This document shows, in pieces, positions 361-44,797 of a stretch of 64,000 nt of DNA. The DNA comes from Sideroxydans lithotrophicus ES-1 (GTDB lineage Bacteria; Pseudomonadota; Gammaproteobacteria; Burkholderiales; Gallionellaceae). Each line of letters starts with the position of its first letter. Positions within the stretch are counted from its first letter, which is position 1. The stretch is taken from assembly GCF_000025705.1 (NCBI RefSeq), contig NC_013959.1, positions 484,001 through 548,000 of the forward strand, written 5' to 3'. Made by a program: the position numbers and the translations under genes. The notes beneath the pieces were generated by a model. That model saw only the letters and a program-made list of their open reading frames with translations, was not told where the DNA came from and ran no database searches.

Positions 361-569
361 TTCATTGTCGAGTGCATGATAAGATTGCTGCCAATGATGC
401 GTATGTTCGCTGGGTCACCATGGATGCAAAATAACACACGTCAGGTTTTGCTGGCTATGGATTTCTGGCAAAAAGCAGGCATCAGTGTACCGGACAATAA
501 TCATTGCATTTGCAGGCGACCCGATGGCAGGCAACCTGTCACCGTTCGGGCAGGAGAGATTCGCAATCT

Positions 570-2825
570 ATGGAAAACTACGGGTCATTCAATTTGAATC
601 TCTCCAAAAGCGAACGGGGTGAAAGATACAAAGTCGCCTTCCTGAACAGCGTGTTCCTGCTCGCCGGTATCGTGGCTTTTGGGATGGGCTTCATCCGTTG
701 GCAAACCAGCGTGGCCATGGGCGAGATCGATTTCGGGTTTGCCGGACTATGCTTTGTGTTGCTGGCCTATCTGCGCCGGCACCGGAGTCAGGCCGATATG
801 TTCGCTTCGATCGTCCTGGTGCTTTGCTATGGCCTGTTCCTGTCGATCTATATTTCCGCGTCGTACAACACGATGCGTCTGTCGCTCTTTTTCCTCCTGG
901 CAGCAGCAGCTTTCTTTCTCAAAGGACGAATCGCCGGGCGCATCTGGCTGGCATTCATCCTGCTGACCATCGTGATTGTCCATGTGTTGCCATATTTCGA
1001 GACCGGCTACTCGCACATCGACATCTTCACTACCTGCCTGTACCTGCTGGCGCTGTTCATCATCTTCGAGAACTACGAGACGTTCAAGGAATCGCAGCAT
1101 ACGAGCGAAGAAGAACAGGCACTGCTGCGCCTGACCGAGGAGCGCTGGCGACACGCACTGGAAGGGACGGGAGATGCAGTCTGGGACTGGCGACCGGAAA
1201 CGGGGGAGTTCCATTATTCCAGGCGCTTCAGCGAGATGCTGGGGTATGCGGAGGGTGAGCTGGGGAAGCACGCAGAACATATCTTCAATATCATCCATCC
1301 CGACGACGAGCCGAGGGTTCGGGATGAATTGCATGACTTTATTCAGCGCCGTGCCGGCAACTATGTTTCGGAGATGAGGTTGTCAGCCAGGGACGGCAGC
1401 TGGAAGTGGATGCTGTGCCGGGGCAAGGTCGCACAACGTGACGACGAACATTCTGCTGGATTGATGGTGGGCACCTTTTCGGACATCACCCTGCTCAAGC
1501 AGCACGAGAGACAACTGGAGCATATTGCCCACTACGATGCTTTGACTGGCATACCCAATCGGGTGTTGCTGGCCGATCGCCTGCAACAGGCTTTGGCGCA
1601 CAGCAAGCGCGAAGGAACGATCCTTGCGGTCTGTTACCTCGATCTGGACGGTTTCAAGCTGGTCAACGACACGATGGGCCACGAGGCCGGCGACAAGGTG
1701 CTGATCGAAGTGACCCAGCGCATCAAGAAATCGATTCGCGGCGACGACACCGTCGCGCGCCTGGGCGGAGACGAATTCGCGGTATTGCTGCTCGGCTTGC
1801 ACGCCCCCGAAGAGTGTTCCGCCAGCCTGAACCGACTGCTGGAGGAGATCAGCCAGCCGATCGAGATCAAGAACCGGTTGTTCGAAGTCAGTGCCAGTAT
1901 CGGCGTCTCCATCTATCCCGGCGACGATCACGATGCCGATACCCTGTTGCGGCATGCTGACCAGGCGATGTATACCGCCAAGCAATCCGGCAAGAACCGT
2001 TATTACCTCTACGATACCGAGAACGACCAGCGCGCCCGTTCCCATCACGAATTCCTGCGGCGGCTTGCCCTCGCATTGGGCAGGAACGAATTCGAGCTCT
2101 ATTACCAGCCCAAAGTCGACATGCGCACGCTCCAGCTGGTTGGCGCGGAAGCGCTGATCCGCTGGCACCACCCGGAACGCGGATTGCTTGCCCCGGGCGA
2201 CTTCCTGCACGCGATCGAAGGGACGACGCTGGAAGTCGAGCTGGGAGACTGGGTCGTGGCGACAGCCCTTGCCCAACTGGAAGCGTGGCATGAGGCTGGC
2301 TTGCCGATGGAGCTGAGTATCAACATTTCGGTGCGCCATCTGCAGGCGAACGATTTCGCCTGGAAATTGAAACGCAAGATGTTGCGCTATTCGCATCTGC
2401 CGAAAGGCTGTTTGCAGGTGGAGGTGCTGGAAACCGCGGCGCTGGAAGACATTCCCAGGGTGAGCGACACCATCGAACGTTGCCGCAAGATCGGTATCAG
2501 CTTCGCCCTGGACGATTTCGGTACCGGGTATTCGTCACTGTCATACCTGGGGCGCTTGCCGGTCGATGCGCTCAAGATCGACCAGTCCTTCATCCGCGAT
2601 ATGCTGAAAGACAAGGGCGACAGGGCCATCGTGCAGGGCGTCATCGCGCTGGCCAAGGTGTTCAATCGCAAGATCGTGGCCGAGGGGGTGGAATCGGAAG
2701 AGTTGTTCCGCGACCTGGTGGAGATGGGGTGCGAATACGGGCAAGGTTATGGCATCGCCCGGCCCATGCCGGCCAGTGAACTGCCCGCATGGCTGGAGAA
2801 GTGGAACAGCAAACCTTTCAGCTGA
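570..2825 (+). CDS. Membrane PAS-GGDEF-EAL cyclic-di-GMP signalling protein
   Basis: A 751-residue protein with about six membrane segments (residues 20-170), a PAS domain (about 188-310), a GGDEF domain and an EAL domain. The GGDEF signature is intact at residues 399-403, and a canonical I-site RxxD (R390, D393) sits exactly five residues upstream, so product-inhibited diguanylate cyclase activity is possible. The EAL signature (527-529) and DDFGTGYSSL are also present, so it may be bifunctional or mainly a c-di-GMP phosphodiesterase. The N-terminal membrane block resembles MASE-type sensory domains, but I cannot name which. The frame is open from 504, but the ATG at 570 is preferred because AGGAG stands at 552-556 and the sequence before it looks non-coding. 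Confidence 0.93.
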   Translation: MENYGSFNLNLSKSERGERYKVAFLNSVFLLAGIVAFGMGFIRWQTSVAMGEIDFGFAGLCFVLLAYLRRHRSQADMFASIVLVLCYGLFLSIYISASYNTMRLSLFFLLAAAAFFLKGRIAGRIWLAFILLTIVIVHVLPYFETGYSHIDIFTTCLYLLALFIIFENYETFKESQHTSEEEQALLRLTEERWRHALEGTGDAVWDWRPETGEFHYSRRFSEMLGYAEGELGKHAEHIFNIIHPDDEPRVRDELHDFIQRRAGNYVSEMRLSARDGSWKWMLCRGKVAQRDDEHSAGLMVGTFSDITLLKQHERQLEHIAHYDALTGIPNRVLLADRLQQALAHSKREGTILAVCYLDLDGFKLVNDTMGHEAGDKVLIEVTQRIKKSIRGDDTVARLGGDEFAVLLLGLHAPEECSASLNRLLEEISQPIEIKNRLFEVSASIGVSIYPGDDHDADTLLRHADQAMYTAKQSGKNRYYLYDTENDQRARSHHEFLRRLALALGRNEFELYYQPKVDMRTLQLVGAEALIRWHHPERGLLAPGDFLHAIEGTTLEVELGDWVVATALAQLEAWHEAGLPMELSINISVRHLQANDFAWKLKRKMLRYSHLPKGCLQVEVLETAALEDIPRVSDTIERCRKIGISFALDDFGTGYSSLSYLGRLPVDALKIDQSFIRDMLKDKGDRAIVQGVIALAKVFNRKIVAEGVESEELFRDLVEMGCEYGQGYGIARPMPASELPAWLEKWNSKPFS

Positions 2826-2836
2826 GCACCGCCAAC

Positions 2837-4291
2837 CTAGCGGATCAGGAAGATCGTCGCCAATCCCAGAAAGATGAAGAAGCCGCCGCTGTCGGTGATG
2901 GCGGTAAGCAGGACGCTGGAGCCGATGGCCGGGTCGCGGCCCAGTTTCTGCATGATCATCGGGATGCCGATGCCGACCAGAGCCCCCAACGTCAGATTGA
3001 GCAGCATCGCGCTGGTCATCACCAGACCGAGTGCAACATTGTGATAAAGGAAATAAGCGAACAATCCGGCGATGCCGCCCCATACCAGGCCGTTCAGGCC
3101 GCTGATCGCCAGTTCCTTGATCATCAGCCGGCGCGCATTGGCCTGCGAGACCTGGCCGAGGGCGATGGAGCGGATGATGATGGTGGTGGTCTGGTTCGCC
3201 GAGTTGCCGGCGATGCCCGCGACGATGGGCATCAGCGTCGCGAGCGCGACGAACTTCTCGATCGTGTTCTCGAAACTGCCGATCACGCGTGAAGCGAAGA
3301 ATGCCGTGCACAGGTTCAGCGCCAGCCAGGTCCAGCGGTTCTGCGCCGACTTCCACACCGAGGCGAAAATGTCCTCCTCTTCGCGCAGACCGGCCTGGTT
3401 CAGCAGATCTGTTTCCGATTCGGCGCGGATGAAGTCCAGCACCACGTTCACCGTCACCCGTCCCACCAGTTTGCCTTCCTCATCGACCACCGGCGCAGAC
3501 ACGAGGTCGTAGCGTTCGAACGACTGGGCTGCCTGAACGGCTTTCTCATCAGGGTTGAGCCGAATGGTGTCGGTCAGCATCAGTTTGCCGACCACCGTCT
3601 CGGGCTCGTTGACCACGATCAGGTTGATCGGCAACACACCCTTGAAGCGGTCGTCGCGGTCCACCACGAACACCTGGTCGGTGTGGTCGGGCAGTTCCTC
3701 GAAACGGCGCAAATAGCGCGATACCACCTCCAGCGTCACGTCCTCGCGCACATGCACCATGTTGAAATCCATCAGCGCGCCGACCGAATCCTTCGAATAC
3801 GACATGGCGGCGCGCAACTGTTCGCGCTCATCGATGGAAAGCGACTTGAACACGTCGCGCATCACGTTCTGCGGCAGGTCGGGGGCGAGATCGGCGATCT
3901 CGTCGGTGTCGAGCTTTTCCGTCGCCTCGCGCAACTCTTCGCGGCTCATGGTCGCGATCAGCGATTCGCGCACCGCATCGGAAACCTCGATCAGGATATC
4001 GCCGTCGCGATCCGCCTTCACCTGATCCCAGACCATCAGGCGCTGATCGATGGGCAACGCTTCCAGGATAAAGGCGATATCGGCAGGATGCAGCTCTTCC
4101 AGCTTTTCGCGCAGCTCCGCCAGGTGGCGCTTGTGCAGCATCTTGTCCAGCAGCTCGTGGCGCTCGTCGCGCGGCAACTCCTGCCGATGGGTCACCGTTT
4201 CCACCAATGCATGCTTTTCCAGCAAGTGGAGCACCTGCTGCAGGTGGTCCTGCACATTCTCGGTGTAGTGATGCTCGTTGCGTTCGGTCAT
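2837..4291 (-). CDS. mgtE: Magnesium transporter MgtE
   Basis: 484 residues with full MgtE layout: an N-terminal helical MgtE_N superhelix (about 10-130), two CBS domains (about 135-265) that sense cytosolic Mg2+, and five C-terminal membrane helices carrying the pore (about 285-484). The membrane part holds the family stretch PIVAGIAGNSANQ. It would be a Mg2+-gated Mg2+ channel of the inner membrane. It diverges from the corA-like gene at 4413, whose first 100 residues are clearly homologous to this protein's N domain. The start at 4291 gives the expected N-terminus. Confidence 0.95.
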   Translation of the reverse strand: MTERNEHHYTENVQDHLQQVLHLLEKHALVETVTHRQELPRDERHELLDKMLHKRHLAELREKLEELHPADIAFILEALPIDQRLMVWDQVKADRDGDILIEVSDAVRESLIATMSREELREATEKLDTDEIADLAPDLPQNVMRDVFKSLSIDEREQLRAAMSYSKDSVGALMDFNMVHVREDVTLEVVSRYLRRFEELPDHTDQVFVVDRDDRFKGVLPINLIVVNEPETVVGKLMLTDTIRLNPDEKAVQAAQSFERYDLVSAPVVDEEGKLVGRVTVNVVLDFIRAESETDLLNQAGLREEEDIFASVWKSAQNRWTWLALNLCTAFFASRVIGSFENTIEKFVALATLMPIVAGIAGNSANQTTTIIIRSIALGQVSQANARRLMIKELAISGLNGLVWGGIAGLFAYFLYHNVALGLVMTSAMLLNLTLGALVGIGIPMIMQKLGRDPAIGSSVLLTAITDSGGFFIFLGLATIFLIR

Positions 4292-4400
4292 GGCGTCTAC
4301 CCAGTATGGCTTTGACTATTGTAAACAAATCGGCAAAATTTCTGGCACTAAAAAGCCGCTAAACGGCCAAATGAACATGATCCGGCAACATTTGTGAGGC

Positions 4401-4406
4401 TATAAT
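4401..4406 (+). promoter_or_regulatory. -10 element almost touching the corA start codon
   Basis: A perfect TATAAT ends seven bases before the ATG at 4413. If it is used, transcription would begin at or next to the A of the start codon, giving a leaderless mRNA. No convincing -35 element and no Shine-Dalgarno sequence stand in front of the ATG. An upstream promoter is the alternative. Confidence 0.45.
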
Positions 4407-4412
4407 CCGCCC

Positions 4413-5744
4413 ATGTCGAACGAGCCCAGCCTCCAATTCCAGAACCACCGTCAAGCCGTGCTGACTCTGCTGGAAAAGCGCAGAGTGACCGAGGAGATGG
4501 TCAAGAAACAGGATATTCCCCATCATGACCTGGTGGAGACCCTGGTGCGTAAACAGAACCTGGCGCGTATCCAGCAATTGCTGAGCGAGATGCCGCCGGT
4601 CGAGATCGCCGCACTCCTCGAGGTGTTGCCTGAAGCAGACCAGTTGTTCATCTGGGACCAGGTCGAAGAGCGGCGCAAGGAACAGGTGCTGCCGGATGTC
4701 TCTGTTTCCATCCTGAATGCCCTGGGCAAGCGGGCGTTCAAGAACGATCGCGCCCGCATCAAGGCATTTGAGCTGTTCGAAGGACGCTTGCGCGAGATAC
4801 TCATCAATACCCAGGAAGACCTGACGAACGCCAAGCCGATCTGGATCGACCTGGTCGACCCTTCATTCGAGGAGCGCGCCTGGGTCGGCGATGCATATGA
4901 TATCGAACTGCCCGACCCCGACCGGGCGAGCGATCTTGAAACCAGCGCCCGTTTCTACATGGAGGAGAACGGCGAGATCCACCTGCGCTCCGATTTCCTG
5001 CTCGACAAGGAAGACATATCGCACAACGTCGGGGTGAGCTTTACGCTGCACCAGGACATCCTGTTCTCGGTGCGCAAGGAAGAGTTGCCGGTGTTCCGGC
5101 TGCAGCGGCTGCGTGCGCTGTCGCAACCGAACTACGTTTCCGATGCGCGCGACGTGCTGCTGGATCTCTACGCGGCTGATGTGGAATATTCCGCCGATGC
5201 GCTGGAAGACATCTATCAGGGGCTGGAAAGGGTCGGCAGCCATGTGCTGAGCAAACAGATGACCGACGAGGAGGCCGCCAAGATGCTGGCTGACATCGGC
5301 CAGGAGGAAGACCTGAACGGGCGCATCCGCCGCAATGTGCTGGACACGCGCCGTGCCGTCTCCTTTCTCATGCGCAGCAGGGTCATCGAACGCCACCAGC
5401 TGGATGATGCGCAGCAGATCCTGCGCGACATCGAATCGATGGACGGGCACACCACTTTCCTGTTTGGCAAGATCAACTTCCTGATGGATGCCACCGTTGG
5501 CTTCATCAACATCAACCAGAACAAGGTCATCAAGCGGCTGACCGTGCTCAGCGTCGTGTTCATGCCGCTCAATGTGATCGCCGGCATCGGCGGCATGTCC
5601 GAATTCTCGATGATGACACAGGGCATTCCATGGCCGATCTCCTACACGGCCTTCACCATCGGCATGGTCTTTGTCGCCTGGATCACCTACGAACTGCTGC
5701 GCCTTGCCGAGAAGCGCGAGAAGCTCAGGATGACGAAGAGTTGA
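4413..5744 (+). CDS. CorA-family Mg2+ transporter with an MgtE-type N-terminal domain
   Basis: 443 residues. The first 100 align by eye with the N-terminus of the neighbouring MgtE: both have a VLxLLEK motif, a downstream pair of similar helices, an LLEVLP / ILEALP motif, and WDQV. Residues from about 135 onward are a CorA cytoplasmic domain, a long stalk helix and two C-terminal membrane helices. CorA proteins have a GMN selectivity motif at the end of the first membrane helix; here the same place (394-396) reads GMS, so the asparagine is replaced. The fusion and the altered motif suggest changed gating or ion choice. It is divergent from mgtE. Confidence 0.88.
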   Translation: MSNEPSLQFQNHRQAVLTLLEKRRVTEEMVKKQDIPHHDLVETLVRKQNLARIQQLLSEMPPVEIAALLEVLPEADQLFIWDQVEERRKEQVLPDVSVSILNALGKRAFKNDRARIKAFELFEGRLREILINTQEDLTNAKPIWIDLVDPSFEERAWVGDAYDIELPDPDRASDLETSARFYMEENGEIHLRSDFLLDKEDISHNVGVSFTLHQDILFSVRKEELPVFRLQRLRALSQPNYVSDARDVLLDLYAADVEYSADALEDIYQGLERVGSHVLSKQMTDEEAAKMLADIGQEEDLNGRIRRNVLDTRRAVSFLMRSRVIERHQLDDAQQILRDIESMDGHTTFLFGKINFLMDATVGFININQNKVIKRLTVLSVVFMPLNVIAGIGGMSEFSMMTQGIPWPISYTAFTIGMVFVAWITYELLRLAEKREKLRMTKS

Positions 5745-10262: not shown

Positions 10263-11334
10263 TTATCCGTGAATCATGCAGCATATTTCACGCGTGAATC
10301 CTGGAAGAATTTTTTGACGCGTTCAGGTGACTTTTCCAGCACCTGCATGTGTTCGGTAGCGGCGGTCTTCAGCTTGGCTTTCGTGCGTGCCGGAACTTGG
10401 TAGAGATGGCATGCTTCAAATCAGCATTCAGCCGTTCTTCCGGATTCAGTTCTGGGCTGTAGCTGGGTAAATAGAACAACTCAATTTTGTCCTTACGTTC
10501 TTCGACAGGCTTGCTGTGATGCACTCGTAGGTTGTCGAGAATCAGGAACACTTTCTTCCCCGCATCTTTGATCAGCGCTTCCAGAAATTCGATCAGTTTG
10601 TCCGAGTTGAGCGCCTCATCAATAATCATCCAGCGGGTCTTGCCCTGGTTGGTGACGGTGGCAATCATCGATAGTTTCTGGCGCGTGCCGCCTACCGCAT
10701 AGGTCACTGGTGTTTTACCAGCAGGGGCGTAGCTTCGACCTCGCACATCGGTATTCACGACCGCTGTTTCATCTCCCCAGTGAATTTCGGCTCCTTCTGC
10801 CTTGGCGCGCTACTCAATCGCCGGGTAGTCTTTGTTCAACCATTCCTGTACCGCTTCAGGGCGCTGCTCATACGCCTTCTTTATCGGCTTTTGCGGGGTG
10901 AAGCCCCAGCGTTTCAGATAGTTGCCAACGCCGCGCACTGAGAGACTGATTCCACATTCGCGTTCGATCAGTTGCGCGACCGCAGAACGATTCCACAGCG
11001 CAAATTCCATCTTCAGTTGCTCCGGTCGCTTGTCGCAGATGATCTGCCGAACCGCCGCTTCTTGCGCTTCGCTCAACACTCGACCGCTGCCAGGCTTTTT
11101 GCTTCGCGCATCAGGCTTAAGCGCCGATGCTCCTGCTTCCGAATATCGCCGGATCGCGGCATTCACCGCGTACCAGCTGAGCCCGCTATGCTCAACTATT
11201 TGCATCACCGGCATCCCCTTCCGGTGCATGCGAATAACTTGCTTGCGCCGTTCGTGAAGTGCCTCCCTTGTTTCTTGCGTCTTCTTTTTCCATGCGCAAT
11301 CGGACACATCAACCTCAGCAAAGTTCACGGATAA
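10263..11334. mobile_element. Degenerate IS630-family insertion sequence
   Basis: The element is bounded by 11-bp perfect inverted repeats, TTATCCGTGAA at 10263-10273 and its complement at 11324-11334, and is filled by one transposase gene on the minus strand. The exact outer ends may reach a few bases further, since flanking sequence is only partly matched. The transposase is broken twice, so the element cannot move by itself. It marks the edge of an accessory patch (10.2-13.9 kb). Confidence 0.75.
10279..11328 (-). pseudogene. IS630-family transposase, inactivated by a stop and a frameshift
   Basis: The 5' part (11328 down to 10810) encodes the helix-turn-helix region with a family-typical RWGFTPQKP motif. 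It ends at an in-frame TAG after PAIE. The same frame continues without gap into RAKAEGAEIHWGDE, the first DDE aspartate region, then LILDNLRVHHSKPVEE and the catalytic end LPSYSPELNPEE. Near 10370 a one-base loss shifts the frame: the expected C-terminus (ARTKAKLKTAATEHMQ, ending KYAA) is found in the next frame up to about 10279. The first visible codon is GTG. With two separate lesions this is a pseudogene, not programmed frameshifting. Confidence 0.88.
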
Positions 11335-44631: not shown

Positions 44632-44707
44632 GGGTCGGTAGCTCAGTCGGTAGAGCAGCGGACTTTTAATCCGTTGGTCGCGAGTTCGAATCTCGCCCGA
44701 CCCACCA
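44632..44707 (+). tRNA. tRNA-Lys (anticodon TTT)
   Basis: 76 bases with acceptor GGGTCGG/CCGACCC, D-arm GCTC/GAGC, anticodon loop CTTTTAA carrying TTT, T-loop TTCGAAT and encoded CCA end. Same transcript as tRNA-Thr. Confidence 0.98.
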
Positions 44708-44721
44708 GTTTCAAAATCCCC

Positions 44722-44797
44722 GCCGCTTTAGCTCAGTTGGTAGAGCAACCGCCTTGTAAGCGGTAGGTCGTCAGTTCGAATCCGACAAGCGGCACCA
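44722..44797 (+). tRNA. tRNA-Thr (anticodon TGT)
   Basis: 76 bases with acceptor GCCGCTT/AAGCGGC, anticodon loop CTTGTAA carrying TGT, T-loop TTCGAAT and encoded CCA end. Fourteen bases after tRNA-Lys. Confidence 0.98.

Follow-up and report, generated by a model that had tools for sequence, protein, structure and literature searches.

A proteobacterial clade of long CorA proteins with a GMS filter, an MgtE-type N-terminal extension and a replaced or remade pore

The locus and its genes

The window (that is, the whole 64,000-nucleotide stretch of DNA that was analysed, taken from the genome of Sideroxydans lithotrophicus ES-1, a single contig of 3,003,656 bases) encodes a long CorA-family protein and, divergently transcribed from it, an MgtE. 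The relevant features, in window coordinates and with the evidence on which each was placed, are as follows.

2837..4291, minus strand: divergent mgtE, 484 amino acids, with N domain, CBS and transmembrane regions (PF01769, PF03448, PF00571 and TIGR00400, all above cut-offs)
4292..4412, no strand: divergent intergenic region, 121 bp between the two starts (riboswitch, promoter and repeat scans)
4413..5744, plus strand: long CorA gene of the GMS type, 443 amino acids, ATG start (open reading frame and Pfam; full-length orthologues at 90-91% that share the start)
4440..4724, plus strand: MgtE-type helical N-terminal extension, residues 10-104 (BLASTP, MgtE_N profile, AF2 model, structural matches)
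4758..5531, plus strand: CorA cytosolic domain and stalk helix of the E. coli CorA type, residues 116-373 (phmmer, Foldseek, 53% mean identity between the clade and its nearest short CorAs)
5532..5588, plus strand: TM1, pore-lining, replaced or remade, residues 374-392 (break in identity to the nearest short CorAs)
5571..5573, plus strand: invariant Asn387, at the position of Thr305 of Thermotoga maritima CorA (alignment including the latter)
5592..5600, plus strand: GMS replacing the GMN selectivity filter, residues 394-396 (codons GGC ATG TCC)
5601..5603, plus strand: invariant Glu397, directly after GMS (alignment)
5604..5744, plus strand: rest of the loop (FSMMTQGIPW), TM2 and C-terminal tail, with the MPEL motif absent (alignment)

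The long protein matches the CorA family PF01544 over residues 141-423 with 128.3 bits against a cut-off of 27 (E = 4.8e-37); it misses the cut-off of TIGR00383, the NCBI corA equivalog (145.5 versus 200.75 bits), and the MgtE membrane domain PF01769 is not among the families that it matches. By comparison with the E. coli CorA entry 5n77, both of sequence (phmmer, 5.2e-50) and of predicted structure (Foldseek E = 5.5e-22, target TM 0.92), the protein has the cytosolic fold and the stalk helix of CorA; confidence of the AF2 model is low in the pore, where pLDDT is about 55-65. This is the sole CorA-family match in its genome, the divergent MgtE is the sole match there to both PF03448 and PF01769, and there is no MgtA above cut-off in that genome. 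The close relatives of the gene are Gallionellaceae and Sideroxydans records.

No Rfam riboswitch was detected at gathering thresholds in the window or in 17 homologous loci, and scans of 4292..4412 for promoters, terminators and inverted repeats returned chance-level matches only. Adjoining mgtE, and convergent with it, lies a large open reading frame (504-2825, plus strand) with GGDEF- and EAL-like sequence by eye. Elsewhere in the window are two adjacent frames that, by eye, resemble halves of an IS630-type transposase in different frames (10369-11328, minus strand) and two tRNA genes side by side (44632-44794, plus strand).

The N-terminal extension and its origin

Residues 10-104 of the CorA align by BLASTP with residues 14-111 of the neighbouring MgtE at 36 identical positions of 98 (37%, E = 1e-16), and all 58 homologous extensions scanned match MgtE_N (PF03448) at E <= 0.1, the best at 4.7e-10, so that the MgtE-type N-terminal region, for which the preliminary description had argued, is borne out. 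For single sequences the match can be weaker: the full-length window CorA scores 14.3 bits and a 114-residue piece of it 25.6 bits (E = 1.8e-5), against a cut-off of 25.9, and the extension of one homologue, L080, gives no match at E <= 0.01 when scanned inside the full-length protein. A profile of the extension matches MgtE structures (2yvy, 1.1e-4). Because the region shared with MgtE spans approximately 50 residues upstream of Pfam MgtE_N and only the first 45 or so of the 102 positions of the latter, ending midway, the N domain is truncated rather than whole. The motif KQDMP(R/K)..LV(E/Q).LVH(K/R)Q is common, nearly letter for letter, to the CorA extensions and to MgtEs from other families of the order. 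The AF2 model of residues 1-114 consists of six helices (mean pLDDT 73), for which the top structural ranks are mostly MgtE cytoplasmic domains and FliG, the best being 8gpv with a VIA Z of 9.6 over 78 residues at 2.5 A, where the level advised for helical bundles is about 13 and middling Z values are common for helical models; the Foldseek match to MgtE has an E of 0.028. Positions 42, 70 and 76 of the extension are acidic in 95-97% of the 58 sequences, but acidic positions are few, so there is little sign of a metal site. An extension of this kind on CorA is already known, and its detection here is a rediscovery: according to a review that cites Knoop 2005 (PMC9276622), Dechloromonas aromatica and Magnetospirillum magnetotacticum possess long CorAs whose N-terminus resembles that of MgtE.

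The adjacency of the two genes and the 37% identity of their N domains led the preliminary description to propose that one gene had borrowed the domain from the other, specifically, that the CorA acquired it from the adjacent mgtE. The comparison with other genomes overturns this proposal. The extension of the window CorA is 45% identical to the corresponding region of an MgtE from another family (L111, genome G450) versus 38% to that of its own neighbour, and in a tree of 95 columns and 59 rows it falls among the extensions of other CorAs. The AU test rejects topologies that join it to the domain of the window's MgtE (p-AU of 5e-73), and likewise those that unite the extensions and the MgtEs of Gallionellaceae (8e-7); moreover, the extension occurs across families without an mgtE in the fetched flank, and a divergent mgtE adjoins the GMS CorA in only four of 80 loci (L008, L011, L012 and L013), some of the loci being short contigs. 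Local borrowing is thus ruled out by the tree and the AU tests, and we assign it a negligible probability. Nor do the trees show a single exchange between the families: a first tree split the extensions from the MgtE domains at 100/98, with C-terminal columns that are perhaps not homologous, and in the trimmed alignment (95 columns, 59 rows, L036 left out) only 16% of the bootstrap trees recover the split, and one CorA extension falls among the MgtE domains. Judging from the sequences, then, borrowing is refuted at the level of the genus, and what remains is an older exchange between the CorA and MgtE families.

The GMS filter and the pore segment

In the CorA/Mrs2 family, selectivity is held to be defined by the asparagine of GMN. 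In the window CorA it is replaced by serine, as the preliminary description had noticed, and this reading holds throughout: GGMS was found, together with the extension, in all 80 loci from other genomes (the best 80 of 107 confirmed relatives in the genome collection), so it is not a sequencing slip, whereas all 106 unique other CorA and ZntB sequences read carry GxN (88 GMN, 14 GIN and 4 GVN). Among the genomes of 61 relatives, the long form is present in 13, the source genome and 12 others, with GGMS in every one of the 13; it was also found in G108. Of the 23 short-form genomes among these 61, 18 had the filters of their short CorAs read directly, and every one is GMN. The clade is rare (two of 274 genomes of the class and three of 398 of the phylum), the pattern GMSE(F/Y..)SMM occurs in three of the 398 phylum genomes, always in long CorAs, and the named records come from beta-, gamma- and alphaproteobacteria and one Geobacteraceae MAG. 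By these sequence criteria, the window gene is a member of a distinct proteobacterial clade of CorA-derived, putative cation channels, which we denote long, GMS CorA.

Other proteins that were compared keep the asparagine. Bpss1228, considered as a possible characterised relative, has GMN; the sugarcane AMN and AIN filter variants keep the asparagine; and three plasmid CorAs that were read are ordinary GMN proteins. As a separate observation, many plasmids of Salmonella and of E. coli carry CorA genes (34 and 24, respectively, of 119 matching records), and the one E. coli plasmid copy that was read has GMN. In the open-access PMC library, neither a GMS CorA nor an MgtE_N-CorA pair was found in print beyond PMC9276622, an absence that carries little weight since subscription papers lie outside this library.

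The filter is only one part of a more extensive change. In the tree of the cytosolic region, the long clade lies within a group of short CorAs (22 long and 13 short proteins, SH-aLRT 99), and these short kin are beta-proteobacterial. Mean identity between the long proteins and the 13 nearest short ones is 53% for residues 116-360 and 74% for residues 361-373, beyond which it is 28% for TM1, 37% for the loop and 14% for TM2, whereas among the short proteins themselves identity is highest in the loop. In 15-residue windows, the long versus short identity is 88% at 356-370 and 32% at 371-385, followed by 33, 21 and 14%; the short versus short values in the last four of these windows are 60, 78, 62 and 38%. 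On a fixed topology, the stem of the clade measures 0.21 for the cytosolic region (260 columns) and 6.42 for the pore (59 columns), versus a pore-to-cytosol ratio of 0.69 for all other branches together. A comparison of 61 long with 37 short proteins gives 16 fixed differences; residues 376-429, which make up 54 of 328 positions, hold 14 of them (hypergeometric 2e-10, at thresholds of our own choosing).

These fixed differences include Thr to Asn387, Tyr to Gly393, Asn to Ser396, the added Glu397 and the loss of the Pro and Glu of MPEL, so that YGMNF..MPEL of the short CorAs corresponds to GGMSEFS..GIPW in the long clade. Asn387 is N in all 61 long proteins, with T in 36 of 37 short ones; Glu397 is E in all 61, opposite an alignment gap in all 37; and MPEL, the source of the acidic loop residue six positions after the Asn, is absent in all 61 aligned long proteins. 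The Thr305 counterpart of Asn387 is described, in the available part of PMC3629940, as a pore residue near the entrance of T. maritima CorA. The portion of PMC11919701 available to us calls Asn443 of GMN and Glu449 omnipresent in the family, has both bind the incoming ion in Mrs2, and describes changes of GMN as damaging in CorA and Mrs2 studies. The long clade thus has neither of the canonical outer ligands, the GMN Asn and the MPEL Glu, and instead has an acidic and an amide residue at invariant positions elsewhere. The loop is nevertheless 99.4% identical within the clade (22 proteins), which argues for strong selection rather than decay. The pore was thus remade or replaced on the stem of the clade, a change of which we found no account in the open-access PMC library, where absence is weak evidence.

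Whether it was remade in place or swapped in by recombination from another CorA-like protein bears on origin only, and either route is compatible with the functional interpretation given below. A swap seems to us a possible, though not the leading, scenario. The break at about residue 373/374 is sharp, TM1 is closer to the T. maritima-type group (42%) than to the clade's own kin (28%), and the TM tree does not place the long clade inside the short-B group. Yet the AU test does not reject TM trees with the long form beside short-B (p of 0.22 and 0.46), and no donor with such a loop was found in 398 genomes of the phylum, in which a TM profile added three weak matches, all of them short GMN CorAs.

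Function and relationship to known systems

In the genus, the long and short forms nearly exclude each other: nine of 34 genomes have the long form, 20 the short form and one both (Fisher p of 0.001), and among the 21 genomes at least 90% complete the counts are six, 14 and none (p of 1e-4), with shared ancestry ignored in both tests and the class of each match assigned by us from coverage and score. This is the pattern expected from functional replacement. MgtE is rarer with the long form (five of 13 long-form versus 18 of 23 short-form genomes, p of 0.03). The GMS form is the only CorA-family match above cut-off in G000, G401, G431, G433 and G270 and in the incomplete G415 and G419. In G431 (85% complete) it is accompanied by no other CorA, MgtE or MgtA above cut-offs, whereas G000 has MgtE, and G401, G270 and G433, with no MgtE, have MgtA; given these other transporters in the near-complete genomes that have only the GMS form, Mg2+ uptake by the latter is not forced.

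A search for a conserved operon yielded weak synteny with mtgA and aroE (named by eye) and, in a few loci, genes of the cation-diffusion-facilitator (CDF) family. The CDF genes adjoin the GMS CorA on the same strand in L028 (2081-3025, a few bases apart) and L025 (2889-3995), and a partial one follows it, again on the same strand, in L067 (5333-5767), which suggests that the two are on one transcript in these loci. In L038 (3047-5353, plus strand), from a Methylococcaceae MAG, a single open frame of 769 amino acids comprises a CDF protein (PF01545, 3.3e-44; ZT_dimer, 1.6e-18), an MgtE_N-like extension and a GMS CorA, so that exporter and channel are apparently fused. Altogether, CDF genes are found in seven of 95 long loci (some of these being the same gene fetched twice) and in none of 40 short loci, which have shorter flanks. 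The CDF link hints at another metal but is too infrequent to count for much.

The interpretation that we consider probable, taken as a whole, is that the long, GMS CorA is a three-part protein, a putative pentameric divalent-cation uptake channel that replaces the canonical CorA, with Mg2+ as the likeliest main ion because the long form stands in for canonical CorA in the genus. The three parts are shown by sequence. The first is the truncated MgtE_N-like extension, common to both families through an old exchange rather than derived from the neighbouring gene; the second, a cytosolic sensor and stalk of the ordinary E. coli CorA type, which group with those of beta-proteobacterial short CorAs; and the third, a TM1-loop-TM2 pore that was replaced or remade on the clade stem and then frozen. 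Assembled like CorA, such a pentamer may meet the ion at its mouth with a ring of Ser and Glu where CorA has its Asn ring and the Glu of MPEL, and a second amide ring, of Asn387, would lie about two helical turns deeper. The unchanged cytosolic domain would close the channel at high cytosolic Mg2+, and the extension might dock on the funnel of the cytosolic part and serve there in structure or gating.

An altered metal channel, as proposed in the preliminary description, is the natural reading of the gene, strengthened by the remodelling of the whole pore segment; the same fact also feeds the main alternative, namely, that the divalent metal passing the remade pore is Mn, Fe, Co or Zn, or that the protein couples metal import with a partner exporter, magnesium being handled by MgtE or MgtA. 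The entire selectivity segment has changed over an unchanged sensor; a ZntB-like protein, L162, also has Asn at the Asn387 position; the adjoining, following or fused CDF proteins of L028, L025, L067 and L038 fit such a role; and mechanisms are already known to vary within the CorA superfamily, as with ZntB (PMC6972854). Nonetheless, we regard this alternative as rather unlikely, given the small numbers in the CDF association, the replacement of short CorA by the long form in the genus and the promiscuity of CorA and ZntB pores, which, according to the abstract of PMC6972854, conduct Mg, Co, Ni and Zn in liposomes through different filters. It is still less probable, indeed improbable, that the GMS protein uses the CorA frame as a sensor or a regulatory subunit and is not an ion channel on its own. 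The loss of the filter Asn reported to be necessary for flux (PMC11919701, as available) and the addition of a helical domain of the protein-interaction type would suit such a role, but the loop is almost invariant in the clade and the seven genomes with only the GMS form offer no CorA partner.

The preliminary description would have been refuted had the domain and the GMS motif proved widespread in a known clade of working CorA Mg2+ channels: the two are indeed widespread in one clade, but no report of that clade as Mg2+ channels, nor a transport datum for any of its members, was found in the literature searched. Beyond the uptake channel, and more tentatively, the clade may represent a CorA-superfamily channel without GxN, assembled from an MgtE-derived N domain, an E. 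coli-type sensor and a pore that was either acquired separately or wholly remade. A ring of Ser and Glu, together with a deeper Asn ring, would then select the ion, with a preference peculiar to this channel type that might, in some lineages, be linked to CDF exporters. In any case, a whole clade devoid of the filter Asn, with the sensor domain unchanged, is a natural test of whether this filter is truly required for magnesium and lets one ask whether filter and gate are separable. Annotation of Mg2+ channels by GMN alone would miss or misname these proteins.

Among the closest known systems, the CorAs of D. aromatica and M. magnetotacticum are unusually long, with an MgtE-homologous N-terminus, and the present clade includes Rhodocyclaceae and Magnetospirillaceae records; the available part of PMC9276622 makes no mention of GMS or of a remade pore. 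MgtE shares with the window CorA the N-terminal region of approximately 95 residues, including the motif KQDMP..LVE.LVHKQ upstream of Pfam MgtE_N, but the CorA extension stops midway through MgtE_N, and the CorA has neither CBS nor the MgtE membrane domain. ZntB of E. coli belongs to the CorA superfamily and has a different pore loop (GGIPG), but it keeps GxN, differs in the cytosolic domain and shows low identity to the window clade in every segment; identification of the clade as ZntB was rejected, the two being separate clades with mean identities of 15% in the cytosolic region and 29% in TM1. T. maritima CorA has a two-TM pore like that of the window CorA, with a TM1 somewhat closer in sequence (MPL..AGI.GM), but it possesses GMN, Thr305, the Tyr and Phe that flank GMN, and MPEL, and its cytosolic sequence differs. 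Finally, the CorA of E. coli and Salmonella (the 5n77 group) has the cytosolic sequence and predicted fold in common with the window CorA but is without the extension and has the YGMNF..MPEL pore, with Thr at the position of Asn387.
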